Shown one piece after another: positions 40,012-44,913 of a stretch of 64,000 nucleotides of DNA. This stretch comes from Armatimonadota bacterium (GTDB taxonomy: Bacteria; Armatimonadota; Zipacnadia; Zipacnadales; JABUFB01): the NCBI GenBank assembly GCA_013314775.1, contig JABUFB010000011.1, positions 135,144 to 199,143 on the forward strand. The letters are read 5' to 3'. The notes beneath the pieces are model-generated. The model had not been told where the DNA came from. It did not search any database and saw only the letters and a program-made list of their open reading frames with translations. The position numbers and the translations under genes are program-made. The first letter of the stretch is position 1. Every line of letters starts with the position of its first letter.

Positions 40012-41172
40012 ATGACAAAGCATGCCGCGCTCCCTATCGTTCTGGCCTGCTTTCTCGCATCGGCCGCCTGCGCCGCACCTCCGGCCAAGGCAGTCGCGCA
40101 TTATGAGAGAGGTCTTCAGCTCAAGCGAGCCAACAAGATGGCCGAATCGGCAGCCGAGTTACGGGCGGCGATTGCGGCTTACCCGAAGTATATGCAGGCC
40201 CACTACGCCTTGGGCTGGGTCTACCGGGCGCTTGGCAAGCCCGACGCAGCCATTGAAGCTTTCCGTGAGGTGATCCGTCTCGAGCCGCACAGCCCCGAAG
40301 CGGTGGAATCGGCCCGGGCGATCCAGCGCATCCGCCTCGGGACCGCACCGGCGACCAGTCCTCCCACCGCCATCGCCTTCGCCTCCGCAAGACAGGGCAA
40401 CACAGATATCTATGTGATGGACCTTACCGGTCAGAACCTGCGCAGGGTCACGGAGGACCCGGCGGTGGATGACTCCCCGGCATGGTCTCCCGATGGCCGA
40501 CGGCTTGCTTTTGTGTCCGAACGGGACGGCAACCGGGAAGTGTACGTGTGCGATGCCAGCGGCGGCAATCTGCAGCGCATCACCGACAATGCCGCTGTCG
40601 ATGACCACCCGGTCTGGTCGCCTGACGGGCTCCGGCTCGCCTTTGAGTCCAACCGCAGCGGAAACATGGACGTGTATGTAGTGGCGGTGGACGGGACCGG
40701 CCTGCAGCAGATCACGTTCTCCCCGGCCGATGACTGGATGGGTGACTGGGATCCACGGGGCGCCCGAATCGCGATCCTCAGCGCGCGCGATCAGGTGAGC
40801 AAGGTCTACATCATAAACACGGACGGCTCCTTCCCGCGCCGGCTGGTGGAGAACACGGTGCCCGAGGGGCGGCCCGTGTGGTCGGCAGACGGGCGGTTTG
40901 TCTACTTCACGTGGAACTTCGACCGCAACTACCAGGTCTGCCGGGCTGACGTGGACGGCCGCGGCCTGGCCAATGTCACCCGCAGCCCCTTCGACGAGCG
41001 CCTCTGCGACGTGTCCGCAGATGGCGGACGGGTTCTGGTGACATCAAACCGCGACAGCGATGAGGAATTGTACGTCATCGAGATGGCTACAGGCGCGGCC
41101 AGACGCATAACTTTCAACCCCGGTGCCGACCGGCACGGAGTATTCCAGCCCCCGATCGGAAGCGGGCAGTAG
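40012..41172 (+). CDS. Exported TPR plus TolB-like beta-propeller protein
   Basis: A 386-residue protein with signal peptide (MTKHAALPIVLACFLASAAC), two to three TPR units (about 25-105, with YALGWVYRALGKPDAAIEAF) and a C-terminal TolB/PD40-type propeller. Propeller blades show the repeated DIYVMDLTGQNLRRVTEDP, PAWSPDGRRLAFVSERDGN and PVWSPDGLRLAFESNRSGN signatures, six in total. TolB propellers act in the periplasm in Tol-Pal envelope maintenance, but the pairing with TPR is not the classical TolB. It is the first of three co-directional genes with a HEAT-repeat and a POTRA-TPR protein. Confidence 0.88.
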   Translation: MTKHAALPIVLACFLASAACAAPPAKAVAHYERGLQLKRANKMAESAAELRAAIAAYPKYMQAHYALGWVYRALGKPDAAIEAFREVIRLEPHSPEAVESARAIQRIRLGTAPATSPPTAIAFASARQGNTDIYVMDLTGQNLRRVTEDPAVDDSPAWSPDGRRLAFVSERDGNREVYVCDASGGNLQRITDNAAVDDHPVWSPDGLRLAFESNRSGNMDVYVVAVDGTGLQQITFSPADDWMGDWDPRGARIAILSARDQVSKVYIINTDGSFPRRLVENTVPEGRPVWSADGRFVYFTWNFDRNYQVCRADVDGRGLANVTRSPFDERLCDVSADGGRVLVTSNRDSDEELYVIEMATGAARRITFNPGADRHGVFQPPIGSGQ

Positions 41173-41231: not shown

Positions 41232-42497
41232 ATGGACGATCCAAAGAGCCAGTGCCGTGTGCTGCTTCCGTCCGACCCGTTCTACGACACGATCTGGCAC
41301 GTCGGCATACGCGAGGCGTTCAGGCGGCCCGAACTGGCTGACCTGTATTCCTGCGCCCGAGAGGAGAACGTGTTTCTCGCTGCACCCCATCTCGAGCCGA
41401 TCCACCAGAATCTGTCGCGTGCATCGCTGGTCATTGCCGACATCACAACGCGAGATGCCAGCGTCATGTACCTGGTCGGGTATGCCCGGGGGCTGGGGAA
41501 GCATCTCATGCTGGTGGGCAAACAGGGCGTCGCGACGCCGTTTTCCGAAGAGCGGGTGCCCATGGTCGCCTACGATCTCGAGACCGACTGGGACCTGAGC
41601 GATTTCGCGTCACGCCTGGTGGCGGCCGTCTCCGCCCTGCCCCTGGCCGCGACCAACTCGCAGCTGGCGAGCATACGGCTGTCCCTGGAGCACCCGAACG
41701 CGGAGGCCCGGCGCGAGGCCGCAATGATGCTGGGCAGCGCGAAGGACGTCCGTGCCATTCCCGCGCTCATCGTGGCCATGGGCGACGAAAACGCCAGCGT
41801 CCGTGCCGCTGCGTCCTGGGCATTGCGGGAGATCGGAGACCCGGTCAGCGCCGGCCTGCTCACCGAAATGCTGCATGACGAGCGCGTTCCCGTGCGACGC
41901 GCGGCTGTCTGGACCCTGCGCGAGATCGGAAGCGACTCGGCATCCACCGCCCTCCTGGACGCCCTGCGGGACCCGGCGCCTGATGTGCGCGAAGTTGCCG
42001 CCTGGGCGTTCAAGGAACTCCGGGAACCCCAGGCGGTGCCGGCGCTCATTGAGCTCATGGACGACGAGAGTCAGCCAGTGCGACGGGCTGCGGCCGAAGC
42101 CCTCTCGGAACAGGCAGATCATCGTGCGGTGCCGGTGCTGTTGGACGCCCTGGCAAGCCCCGATCCTCAGTTGCGAGCCGCGGCCGCTCGGGGTCTGGGA
42201 GGCTTGGGGGACGTCAGCGCAATACCCGCCCTGGCCGAACTGGCGCGCGACCCGAAGTGGTCTGTGAGACAGGCTGCAGCCCGGGCGCTGGGCCGTCTCG
42301 GGCGCGCCGATGTCGTGCCACATCTCGCAGCATTTATCAGCGACCCCGAAGAAGACGTGCGCTGGGCGGCAGTTGAGGCGCTGGCAGAGATTGGCGGCCC
42401 GGAGGCGCGAAAGATGCTTCAGGCGGCTGCGCAGGACGAAAACCAGACCGACCTTGTGCGCGCTGTGGCGCGAGAGGCCCTGGAACGCAATGATTGA
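41232..42497 (+). CDS. HEAT-repeat protein with N-terminal nucleoside-deoxyribosyltransferase-like domain
   Basis: A 421-residue protein. Residues about 5-130 resemble the nucleoside 2-deoxyribosyltransferase/DRHyd-like Rossmann fold: IHQNLSRASLVIADIT, then VMYLVGYARGLGKHLMLVGKQ. In catalytic relatives the corresponding segment is Y-E-x-G with a catalytic Glu; here it is Tyr80-Leu81, so catalysis is doubtful. From about 145 to the end lie roughly nine HEAT/PBS-lyase repeats (VRAAASWALREIGD, VRRAAVWTLREIGS, VREVAAWAFKELRE, VRQAAARALGRLGR). No signal peptide. HEAT scaffolds bind proteins, and the head may sense nucleotides (inference). It is 52 bp upstream of the POTRA-TPR gene. Confidence 0.82.
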   Translation: MDDPKSQCRVLLPSDPFYDTIWHVGIREAFRRPELADLYSCAREENVFLAAPHLEPIHQNLSRASLVIADITTRDASVMYLVGYARGLGKHLMLVGKQGVATPFSEERVPMVAYDLETDWDLSDFASRLVAAVSALPLAATNSQLASIRLSLEHPNAEARREAAMMLGSAKDVRAIPALIVAMGDENASVRAAASWALREIGDPVSAGLLTEMLHDERVPVRRAAVWTLREIGSDSASTALLDALRDPAPDVREVAAWAFKELREPQAVPALIELMDDESQPVRRAAAEALSEQADHRAVPVLLDALASPDPQLRAAAARGLGGLGDVSAIPALAELARDPKWSVRQAAARALGRLGRADVVPHLAAFISDPEEDVRWAAVEALAEIGGPEARKMLQAAAQDENQTDLVRAVAREALERND

Positions 42498-42549: not shown

Positions 42550-44850
42550 ATGCGCACCCCTCCGACCCCGTGGATTACCCTACTCCTTTCAGTCCTGATC
42601 GCGGGCGCCTGCATCGCAGCCCCTGTGAAGGTCGCCGAGATAGAGGTCTCCGGCAACGAAATCATCGCCGAAGAGACGATCCGGAAGGCTTTCCCCGCCG
42701 GTCTTCTTGTGGGACGCTTCGTGGACGATCTGGCCGGGATTCTGGCCACCACTCGCACCCAGGTGATGAGACTGGGGTATTTCAAGGACGTGCGGGTAAC
42801 TGCGGAGGAAGGCGCTGACGGCCAGCGCGTCCGGGTCCAGGTCACCGAACTGCCCCGGATCGAGAACGTGATCTTCAAAGGCAACACTCTCCTGTCCGAG
42901 GAGCAGCTCAGGAACATTGTGCGCACGGTGCCCGGAGCCTTCCTTGACGACACCCTCGTGCGCCGGGATCTGCAGCGCATTGTGGAGGCTTACGAGGACA
43001 TCGGGGCTGCCGCCGACGCCGTTTACGCCTTTCTCGAAGATGAGAAGACCGTGCTTTTCGGAGTACTCGAGGCGGTGTTCGGGGGTATCACCTTCCAGGG
43101 GCTGAAGGTCGTCACTGAGGCCGAGGCGCGCAGAGAGTTGGGGCTTGAGCTTGAGTCCGTGGTGACTGTCGCGAGCATACAGGACGGCATGTCACGATTG
43201 CGCGAGACCGGCTGGTTCGCCTCCCTGGACTACCAGACTCGCTTGGAGCGCCCGGGCGTCCAACCGCCGAAGCTCTTTCTCGATGTGCGGGTCACAGAAG
43301 CGCCTGGCATCTTCCCTGACCGGATCGGAAAGCTCAAGCCCGGAGTGACCGCGCAGCAGGTTCGTGCGATCGTGAGGCCACCCCAGGTGGAAATCGGTTT
43401 CGCAGTGGAGCTGAAATGGGATTCGGCGCCGCCGCAACTACAATCGCCAGACAAGCCCTTGGAGGAGCTCAGACGCGACGCGGAGGCAGAGACAGCAGGG
43501 GTTGCGCAGATCAGAGCCTATGCCCGTGCACTCGAGGCCGCTGGGGAGCGAGACGCCGCTGCGGCCCAGTTCAACCGGGCCGCTGAGCGTGCGAGGGCCG
43601 TCGTGGAGGCAGCTCCCGGAGATGTGCGGGTGCGCGTGGCGCTGGTGTTCGCACTGCGGGATGCCGGCATGGGCGAGGAGGCTCTGGCCGAGGCCCGGCG
43701 GTGTGTGGAGCAGGCGCCGGAAGACTGGCAGGCACAGCTGGCCCTGACAACAACAGCGGCGGACCGCATTCTCAAATTGCCGCGAGTTGGTGCTGAGGCC
43801 GACGCAGGCCAGGCGCGGCGCGCCGGTCTGAGGGCAACCGCGCAGATCATGCCCTGGCCCGGCACCCGGCAGGCGGCTCTGGCAGCCGTTGGAGCACAGG
43901 CAGACGACGAGGAATCTGCGCTAGTGGAAGACGCCGCGCGGGCGCTGGAAAAAGCACAGAGCCTCGCGCCTGGCGAGAAACTGCCCGCCATTTGCGTCCT
44001 GGACAGGGTCCAGAGGGTCATGGCCGCGCTGGCCAGGGCAGGCGTGGCGCCCCCCGAACTTTGGGCTGCCTTTGACAAAGACCGCGCCGAACGTCTCCCG
44101 GCCCTGCGCGTGCCGGCCGAGAGCGACCCAGAGATGGCTGTGTTCGTGGCTCTGATCGCCAACGCCCGCGCTGTGATCGCGATGCTGTCCGGTTCCCAGG
44201 GTGATCCCGCAACGCCGGTGGAGATGAAGGCGCTAATGGACGAACTGACAGCAATCGCCACGAAATGGCCGCAATCCTTGCGGACATCAGGGGGCATCCT
44301 GGGCATGGCGCATCTCATGTCGGGTGACTTCGACAAGGCACGCGCCATCTTCGAGGAAATGATCCAGCAGAATCCTGACGAGCGGGAGCCCTACAACGCC
44401 CTGATGGCCGTGGCTTTCAGTGCCCGGGACTGGGAGGCTCTGGCGGCGGCTGTGCGCAGGCGACTGGAGCGGTCTCAGGATGCGATCGATTATGTCATCC
44501 TGGGCAAGACCGCGATGCTCCTGGGCAAGGACGACGAGGCGCTGGGCCACTTCGAAAAGGCCGCCGAGCTGTTTCCGGATGACCCGCTGGGCCACAATGC
44601 CAAGGCGGGTTGGCTGGTCCACCTGGGTCGGGACGACGCTCTAGCCACGCGGCATGTGGACAGGGCCCTGGAGCTTGCCCCGGACAGCGGCTATGCCCAT
44701 GCCCTGAAAGCCGCGCTCGCCCTGATCGCGAACAAGCCCGAGGACGCTGTCGTTCGGCTGACATCAGCCCTCAAATCGGCCCCGACGTGTGAATTGGCGA
44801 ACGCCCTGAGAGACAACCTGTTTACCGTTGAGACGGTTGAGGGGGAGTAA
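42550..44850 (+). CDS. Periplasmic POTRA-domain plus TPR-repeat protein (BamA-like POTRA, no beta-barrel)
   Basis: A 766-residue protein with signal peptide (PWITLLLSVLIAGACIA). It has about three POTRA-like repeats (25-270): KVAEIEVSGNEIIAEETIRK, RIENVIFKGNTLLSEEQLRN and ITFQGLKVVTEAEARRELG. These are typical of BamA/Omp85. In place of a beta-barrel, the C-terminal 450 residues are TPR or TPR-like helices, with clear units EALAEARRCVEQAPEDW, KARAIFEEMIQQNPDE and EALGHFEKAAELFPDDP. Such a protein would act in the periplasm, perhaps helping outer-membrane protein assembly. ATG 42550 fits the signal peptide; upstream in-frame ATGs (42310, 42490) overlap the HEAT gene and precede it poorly. Confidence 0.82.
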   Translation: MRTPPTPWITLLLSVLIAGACIAAPVKVAEIEVSGNEIIAEETIRKAFPAGLLVGRFVDDLAGILATTRTQVMRLGYFKDVRVTAEEGADGQRVRVQVTELPRIENVIFKGNTLLSEEQLRNIVRTVPGAFLDDTLVRRDLQRIVEAYEDIGAAADAVYAFLEDEKTVLFGVLEAVFGGITFQGLKVVTEAEARRELGLELESVVTVASIQDGMSRLRETGWFASLDYQTRLERPGVQPPKLFLDVRVTEAPGIFPDRIGKLKPGVTAQQVRAIVRPPQVEIGFAVELKWDSAPPQLQSPDKPLEELRRDAEAETAGVAQIRAYARALEAAGERDAAAAQFNRAAERARAVVEAAPGDVRVRVALVFALRDAGMGEEALAEARRCVEQAPEDWQAQLALTTTAADRILKLPRVGAEADAGQARRAGLRATAQIMPWPGTRQAALAAVGAQADDEESALVEDAARALEKAQSLAPGEKLPAICVLDRVQRVMAALARAGVAPPELWAAFDKDRAERLPALRVPAESDPEMAVFVALIANARAVIAMLSGSQGDPATPVEMKALMDELTAIATKWPQSLRTSGGILGMAHLMSGDFDKARAIFEEMIQQNPDEREPYNALMAVAFSARDWEALAAAVRRRLERSQDAIDYVILGKTAMLLGKDDEALGHFEKAAELFPDDPLGHNAKAGWLVHLGRDDALATRHVDRALELAPDSGYAHALKAALALIANKPEDAVVRLTSALKSAPTCELANALRDNLFTVETVEGE

Positions 44851-44883: not shown

Positions 44884-44913
44884 TTGACAACGCGAATCAG
44901 CTTCACTTATAAT
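44884..44913 (+). promoter_or_regulatory. Consensus sigma-70 promoter for the Gfo/Idh/MocA gene
   Basis: A perfect -35 TTGACA (44884-44889) and a perfect -10 TATAAT (44908-44913) are separated by 18 bp, the clearest promoter in the window. Transcription should start near 44920, leaving a leader of about 30 nt before the TTG start at 44950. This rules out the in-frame start at 44884, which is inside the promoter. Confidence 0.85.

Follow-up and report, generated by a model that had tools for sequence, protein, structure and literature searches.

In nearly all studies, BamA-type POTRA domains appear as an arm that belongs to an outer-membrane barrel. Can such an arm exist as a protein of its own, and what would it then do? 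The question is raised by one gene in the window, a stretch of 64,000 nucleotides from the genome of an Armatimonadota bacterium. A first description, made from the letters of this stretch and here called the sequence-only reading, found a signal peptide, about three POTRA repeats and a C-terminal part of TPR helices in place of the Omp85 barrel. It proposed a profile search, a structure prediction and a survey of relatives as checks, and named a C-terminal barrel or a missing N-terminal POTRA fold as the findings that would speak against it. A natural soluble protein with three POTRAs and no barrel would make POTRA function separable and testable.

Domain architecture of the POTRA-TPR protein

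The POTRA-TPR frame starts at an ATG at 42550 and ends with a stop codon at 44848-44850, and the coordinates of the sequence-only reading are correct (Table 1). An in-frame extension from 42310 would overlap the 3' end of the gene before it, whereas 42550 corresponds to the start of the orthologues. Rfam has no match in the region.

Table 1. Coordinates of the POTRA-TPR gene, its domains and its neighbours in the window
Feature	Position	Strand	Evidence
TPR and PD40/TolB-like propeller protein, signal peptide present (gene 1 of the trio)	40012..41172	+	Pfam; synteny in four genomes
Nucleoside-deoxyribosyltransferase/TIR-like N-domain and HEAT repeats (second gene of the trio)	41232..42497	+	Pfam
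POTRA-TPR gene, 766 aa	42550..44850	+	ORF, Pfam, full-length orthologues
Signal peptide, residues 1-23, cut C-I-A/A-P (type I)	42550..42618	+	Sequence, orthologues
POTRA 1, residues about 26-100	42625..42849	+	PF07244 stretch, weak POTRA_1; collinear with BamA POTRA1
POTRA 2, residues about 101-175 (best Pfam stretch 102-166)	42850..43074	+	Pfam, BamA alignment
POTRA 3, residues about 176-250 (end corresponds to start of BamA's barrel)	43075..43299	+	Pfam, BamA alignment
Conserved linker, residues 251-320, motif P-G-[IV]-[FL]-P-[DE]-R-[IVL]-G, where BamA has barrel strand 1	43300..43509	+	Four-way alignment; dN/dS 0.11
TPR superhelix, residues about 321-757 (Pfam TPRs 583-750, weaker near 330-410)	43510..44820	+	Pfam, AlphaFold2, Foldseek
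Sigma-70-type promoter TTGACA-18-TATAAT, between POTRA-TPR and the downstream Gfo/Idh/MocA gene	44884..44913	+	Kept in all four f1 genomes

Sequence profiles assign the N-terminal part to the POTRA fold. The Pfam POTRA model PF07244 matches in three separate stretches; its score is 78.6 bits (E = 6.1e-22), where the cut-off is 21.3. POTRA1-3 of Armatimonadota BamAs can be aligned over their full extent with residues 25-250. Beyond E250, the equivalent of the last BamA residue ahead of the barrel, the two proteins are no longer similar. The count of about three POTRAs behind a signal peptide holds. A profile of 13 family sequences matches solved POTRA structures with E-values down to 6.7e-41, and POTRA3-5 of E. 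coli BamA with 2e-29. Other models fit partially: POTRA_1 (3.2e-5) at residues 27-47 only, positions 2-22 of a 69-position profile, and the NCBIfam BamA equivalog TIGR03303 over residues 27-162 only, with 66.7 bits, below its cut-off of 297.

The C-terminal part is made of helices. The Omp85 barrel model PF01103 has no match in the protein, and residues 583-750 match TPR_2 (3.2e-13), TPR_14 (6.1e-13) and further TPR models. AlphaFold2, run on a two-sequence alignment, predicts nothing but helices after residue 304; they extend to residue 757, with a pLDDT of roughly 50-87 over most of this part. In Foldseek the helical region is matched by the TPR of O-GlcNAc transferase (OGT), by a consensus TPR and by the periplasmic adaptor LbcA (8sxf_C); such superhelix matches are unspecific, and the eukaryotic APC/C and OGT score above LbcA. 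We reject a cryptic C-terminal barrel, as there is no PF01103 match and the model is helical after residue 304.

The POTRA part is of low confidence in the full model (pLDDT under 40) and likewise in a second model of residues 24-297. We therefore left it out of the evidence, and the POTRA fold rests on the sequence profiles. Taken together, profiles find POTRA domains at the N-terminus and no barrel at the C-terminus, and the architecture first described is borne out by the HMM search, by the alignment and by the survey of relatives below.

Where is the protein located? The boundary A/A-P is common to three of the four orthologues. The cysteine near it stands in a different context each time (A-G-A-C, A-V-C, L-C and S-W-C), and reading the four aligned proteins by eye we found no conserved lipobox. 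A transmembrane segment is likewise not apparent in the sequence. With an A-x-A end of the signal peptide, no conserved lipobox and no transmembrane segment, a soluble periplasmic protein, as proposed in the sequence-only reading, is the most likely interpretation; its role as an adaptor is one that we infer.

Relation to BamA and occurrence in Armatimonadota

The genome of the window (G000; 6.12 Mb in 37 contigs) encodes one barrel-bearing Omp85 protein according to the PF01103 search. This is a 630-aa BamA with three POTRAs on contig C7, in the gene order TamB, ECF sigma factor, BamA, OmpH/Skp, an unnamed gene and LpxD. As a separate and intact BamA/TamB system is present, the POTRA-TPR protein does not replace BamA but is an additional paralogue that has no barrel. 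Its POTRAs are 28% identical to those of the genome's own BamA.

BamD (PF13525) was not found in the genome of the window or in its relatives G254 and G255. In several other relatives, it is mostly long TPR proteins that PF13525 picks out, and not a gene of BamD size. Genomes of the same order that do not carry a POTRA-TPR gene likewise have no proper BamD. Hence the POTRA-TPR protein is not a simple BamD replacement.

The family contains three more genomes with full-length orthologues, at 87% (G254, the nearest relative), 33% (G255) and 32% (G256) identity. Between the window's genome and G254 the dN/dS ratio is 0.136 for the whole gene. It is 0.16 for the POTRAs, 0.23 for the N-terminal part of the TPR region and 0.07 for its C-terminal part. 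For BamA of the same two genomes the ratio is 0.007, and among the same genera BamA is 64-66% identical as against 32-33% for POTRA-TPR. The gene is clearly under purifying selection, yet it evolves far faster than BamA.

To determine how widely the architecture occurs, we searched 291 Armatimonadota genomes with a six-sequence profile and then with a C-terminal profile of 13 sequences. There are at least 14 barrel-less POTRA-TPR proteins in at least 11 of the 291 genomes, distributed over four families; the searches scored a few top candidates per genome, and more diverged members may be missed. The family of the window's bacterium (f1) contributes the four orthologues already described. Family f9 is represented by G248 with two proteins (769 and 777 aa), family f10 by G249 and G250 with two proteins each, and family f40 by G214, where a contig end cuts the gene, G215, G216 and G217.

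Both long POTRA frames of G248 consist of a signal peptide, POTRAs and TPRs without a barrel. Together with the wider profile, they overturn the idea that the architecture is limited to one bacterium or to family f1. When ten further members were compared to Pfam, all ten matched POTRA, most matched TPR and none matched Omp85. Two f10 members are weak (POTRA 0.007 and 3e-4, no TPR match), and the members from G214 and G215 match POTRA and have no TPR match. A barrel-bearing Omp85 protein is also present in six of the seven genomes outside f1 that carry POTRA-TPR; it was not found in G250, a fragmented assembly. The recurrence in four families argues that the design is real and probably useful to the building of the outer membrane in some bacteria. 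Its presence elsewhere in the phylum, like the intact BamA, goes beyond the sequence-only reading.

Did the architecture arise once? Proteins of f9 and f10a are 27-28% identical over 736-757 aa, and their C-terminal parts match each other with an hhalign probability of 99.9%. Between the C-terminal part of the f1 proteins and those of the other families, hhalign similarity does not rise above TPR background. In a tree of the POTRAs, whose branches are long, a single clade of all members is not rejected (p-AU 0.30). By these sequence comparisons, the barrel may possibly have been replaced by TPRs two or more times. A close-relative scan of genome contigs returned one full-length match, from Armatimonadetes, the rest being partial and confined to the TPR region. 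A plasmid scan returned four Sinorhizobium matches, to the POTRA part only. The patchy presence and the fast evolution suggest that the protein is either not essential or specialised for particular substrates.

The neighbourhood of the gene

The sequence-only reading had placed the gene in a co-directional set with a TPR-TolB propeller protein and a HEAT-repeat protein. The set exists. Its genes are separated by 59 bp (TPR-TolB to HEAT) and 52 bp (HEAT to POTRA-TPR), and order and direction are kept in all four f1 genomes, which belong to three genera.

Whether the three genes form one system is less certain. The HEAT protein matches PF13646 with 4.9e-71, and its N-terminal domain matches Nuc_deoxyrib_tr with 0.07, below the cut-off. 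No signal peptide is visible in its sequence, a point that the sequence-only reading did not make. Given this and its deoxyribosyltransferase-like start, the HEAT protein is probably cytoplasmic. In f9, f10 and f40 the TPR-TolB and HEAT genes do not adjoin POTRA-TPR; its neighbours there are a glycogen debranching-like enzyme (identified by eye), DUF218, a beta-lactamase2 family protein and a divergent YchF-like GTPase. In the neighbourhoods examined, no BAM or TAM pathway gene lies beside any member. Because the neighbours differ between families, the trio is a family-level arrangement, which speaks weakly for a joint function. A functional system of phylum-wide extent is unsupported.

The promoter behind the gene agrees with the consensus at 12 of 12 positions and has an 18-bp spacer. 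It recurs at L036:10102, L049:11692 and L050:7758 and is kept across three genera. It gives the Gfo/Idh gene a start of its own, and thus the trio can at most close a transcription unit distinct from what follows.

Two observations concern the neighbours themselves. The N-terminal domain of the HEAT protein carries the motif ADITxxDxxVMYxxGYA, and within the class the domain occurs only in the four f1 genomes. A first look at propeller proteins, of which the TPR-TolB fusion is one, gave about 90-120 candidates per f1 genome, which suggests a large family expansion.

What the POTRA-TPR protein may do

By beta-augmentation, POTRA domains take up extended strands, and in BamA they are the docking platform on which accessory proteins and TamB assemble. 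The groove of a TPR superhelix is a binding site for peptides and proteins. We propose tentatively, with a little less than even confidence, that the POTRA-TPR protein is an exported, soluble periplasmic paralogue of BamA that would act as a two-headed adaptor or holdase in outer-membrane assembly. Its POTRAs would capture outer-membrane proteins that are still unfolded by their extended strands, as in BamA. Alternatively, they would dock by beta-augmentation on edges that POTRAs or TamB offer in the BamA-TamB machine. A second partner, be it the tail of the substrate, a chaperone or another envelope protein, would be held by the TPR superhelix. The adaptor would then bring this partner to the substrates bound by the POTRAs or to the BamA-TamB machine. 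In this way a lineage in which BamD is not recognisable would have a TPR module beside its POTRA platform. The substrates may be specific to the lineage, in keeping with the patchy occurrence and an evolution much faster than that of BamA. POTRAs also occur in proteins outside the BAM pathway such as FtsQ/DivIB, and they are therefore no proof of a function in outer-membrane protein assembly.

The patchiness and the fast divergence between genera could also be read differently. The protein may be a dedicated export or assembly factor for lineage-specific surface or secreted proteins, working with a partner of its own, for example the TPR-TolB protein, and not with the BAM pathway in general. 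The trio fits such a factor, as four genomes keep it and the next gene has its own promoter. However, no substrate family is apparent, and the TPR-TolB and HEAT genes are not adjacent to POTRA-TPR outside f1. We consider this account unlikely.

LbcA among the Foldseek matches leads to another alternative. TPR adaptors of the proteases CtpA and Prc have a known periplasmic role, and by analogy with LbcA/NlpI the TPR region could recruit a C-terminal processing protease to which the POTRAs present misassembled outer-membrane proteins. However, TPR matches of this kind are unspecific, with higher scores for eukaryotic proteins, and no protease gene is adjacent to POTRA-TPR. Such a quality-control role thus appears quite unlikely. 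Still more doubtful is a decoy: soluble POTRAs would bind the substrates or partners of BamA and limit the flux through BAM, with the TPR region as a sensor. BamA's POTRA set without the inserting barrel is what one would expect of a decoy, but the POTRAs have diverged strongly from those of the genome's own BamA, and neither a regulatory domain nor a conserved regulatory context is present. Finally, the many-contig, metagenome-like assemblies might make one think of a chimeric contig, or of a chance fusion between a decaying bamA and a TPR gene. Both are refuted, like any pseudogene or assembly artefact, by the full-length and syntenic orthologues in four genomes that were assembled separately and represent three genera, by constraint on all domains and by the full-length f9 and f10 homologues.

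How does the adaptor that we propose compare to known systems? It resembles BamA (Omp85; TIGR03303, PF07244 and PF01103) in its signal peptide and in its three POTRAs, which are collinear with those of the BamAs of the phylum that have three. It differs in the TPR superhelix that takes the place of the 16-strand barrel, in its rate of evolution and in standing beside a separate BamA. Because the barrel was tested for and is missing, the protein is a BamA-derived variant or paralogue and not a strict member of Omp85. With BamD (YfiO, PF13525) it shares, as a functional analogy, a periplasmic TPR region beside POTRA domains; in contrast to BamD it has no PF13525 match among its Pfam matches, is not a lipoprotein by sequence, has POTRAs of its own and a longer TPR region. 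LbcA and NlpI also have a periplasmic TPR superhelix, but they are lipoproteins without POTRA domains. FtsQ/DivIB carries a POTRA (POTRA_1) outside the barrel family as well, but this is a single domain with a membrane anchor and a role in division, and the POTRA_1 match in our protein spans 20 residues only.

TamA/TamB and the BAM-TAM hybrids described in Borrelia (PMC13382580) resemble the protein in their 3-POTRA platform, with TamB encoded beside BamA in the window's genome; TamA, however, has a barrel and no TPR part. The ten Omp85/TpsB subfamilies of Heinz and Lithgow (2014; PMC4104836), BamA-like and lipoprotein types among them, are POTRA-bearing architectures too, but all bear a barrel by construction of that survey, and its text does not mention TPR. 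In the TPR-TamB-TamA operon of Bdellovibrio and Myxococcus (PMC3983030) a TPR protein is genetically tied to an Omp85/TamB system. There, however, the proteins are separate, the TPR protein has no signal sequence and the Omp85 protein has seven POTRAs and a barrel. By analogy, the POTRA-TPR protein would at most combine, in a single chain, the work of a POTRA platform with that of a BamD-like TPR module; it belongs to neither the BamD nor the TamA family.

Our literature search found no description of POTRA-TPR or of a barrel-less POTRA architecture. It is possible, though on balance doubtful, that these proteins form an undescribed class of soluble POTRA adaptors of the BAM pathway. Such a class would consist of duplicated BamA POTRA platforms in which TPRs replaced the barrel, possibly repeatedly, in diderms that have a 3-POTRA BamA and TamB and no BamD. 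The architecture suggests how diderm phyla other than Proteobacteria may supply BamD-like TPR functions around BamA.

For genome surveys it follows that the number of POTRA matches does not equal the number of BamA or TamA genes. POTRA and barrel genes occur in several other arrangements as well. In G248, which also has the two POTRA-TPR proteins, locus L078 (G248:C65:40500-48500) holds three tandem BamA-type genes with POTRAs and a barrel. In G255 a second Omp85-barrel match (2.6e-14) lies in a 517-aa frame at G255:C63:12315-13600, with a PD40/TolB-like propeller match directly after it. At L016 (G288:C34) an in-frame TAG inside the POTRA region of BamA gives frames of 163 and 466 aa, through a sequencing error or a real interruption. 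The frame at L147:1-2151 (G001:C101) begins with a region that by eye resembles a BlaR1-like M56 metallopeptidase, continues with about four POTRA repeats and then stops without a barrel; judged by its sequence, Armatimonadota thus have another type of POTRA protein without a barrel, distinct from POTRA-TPR.
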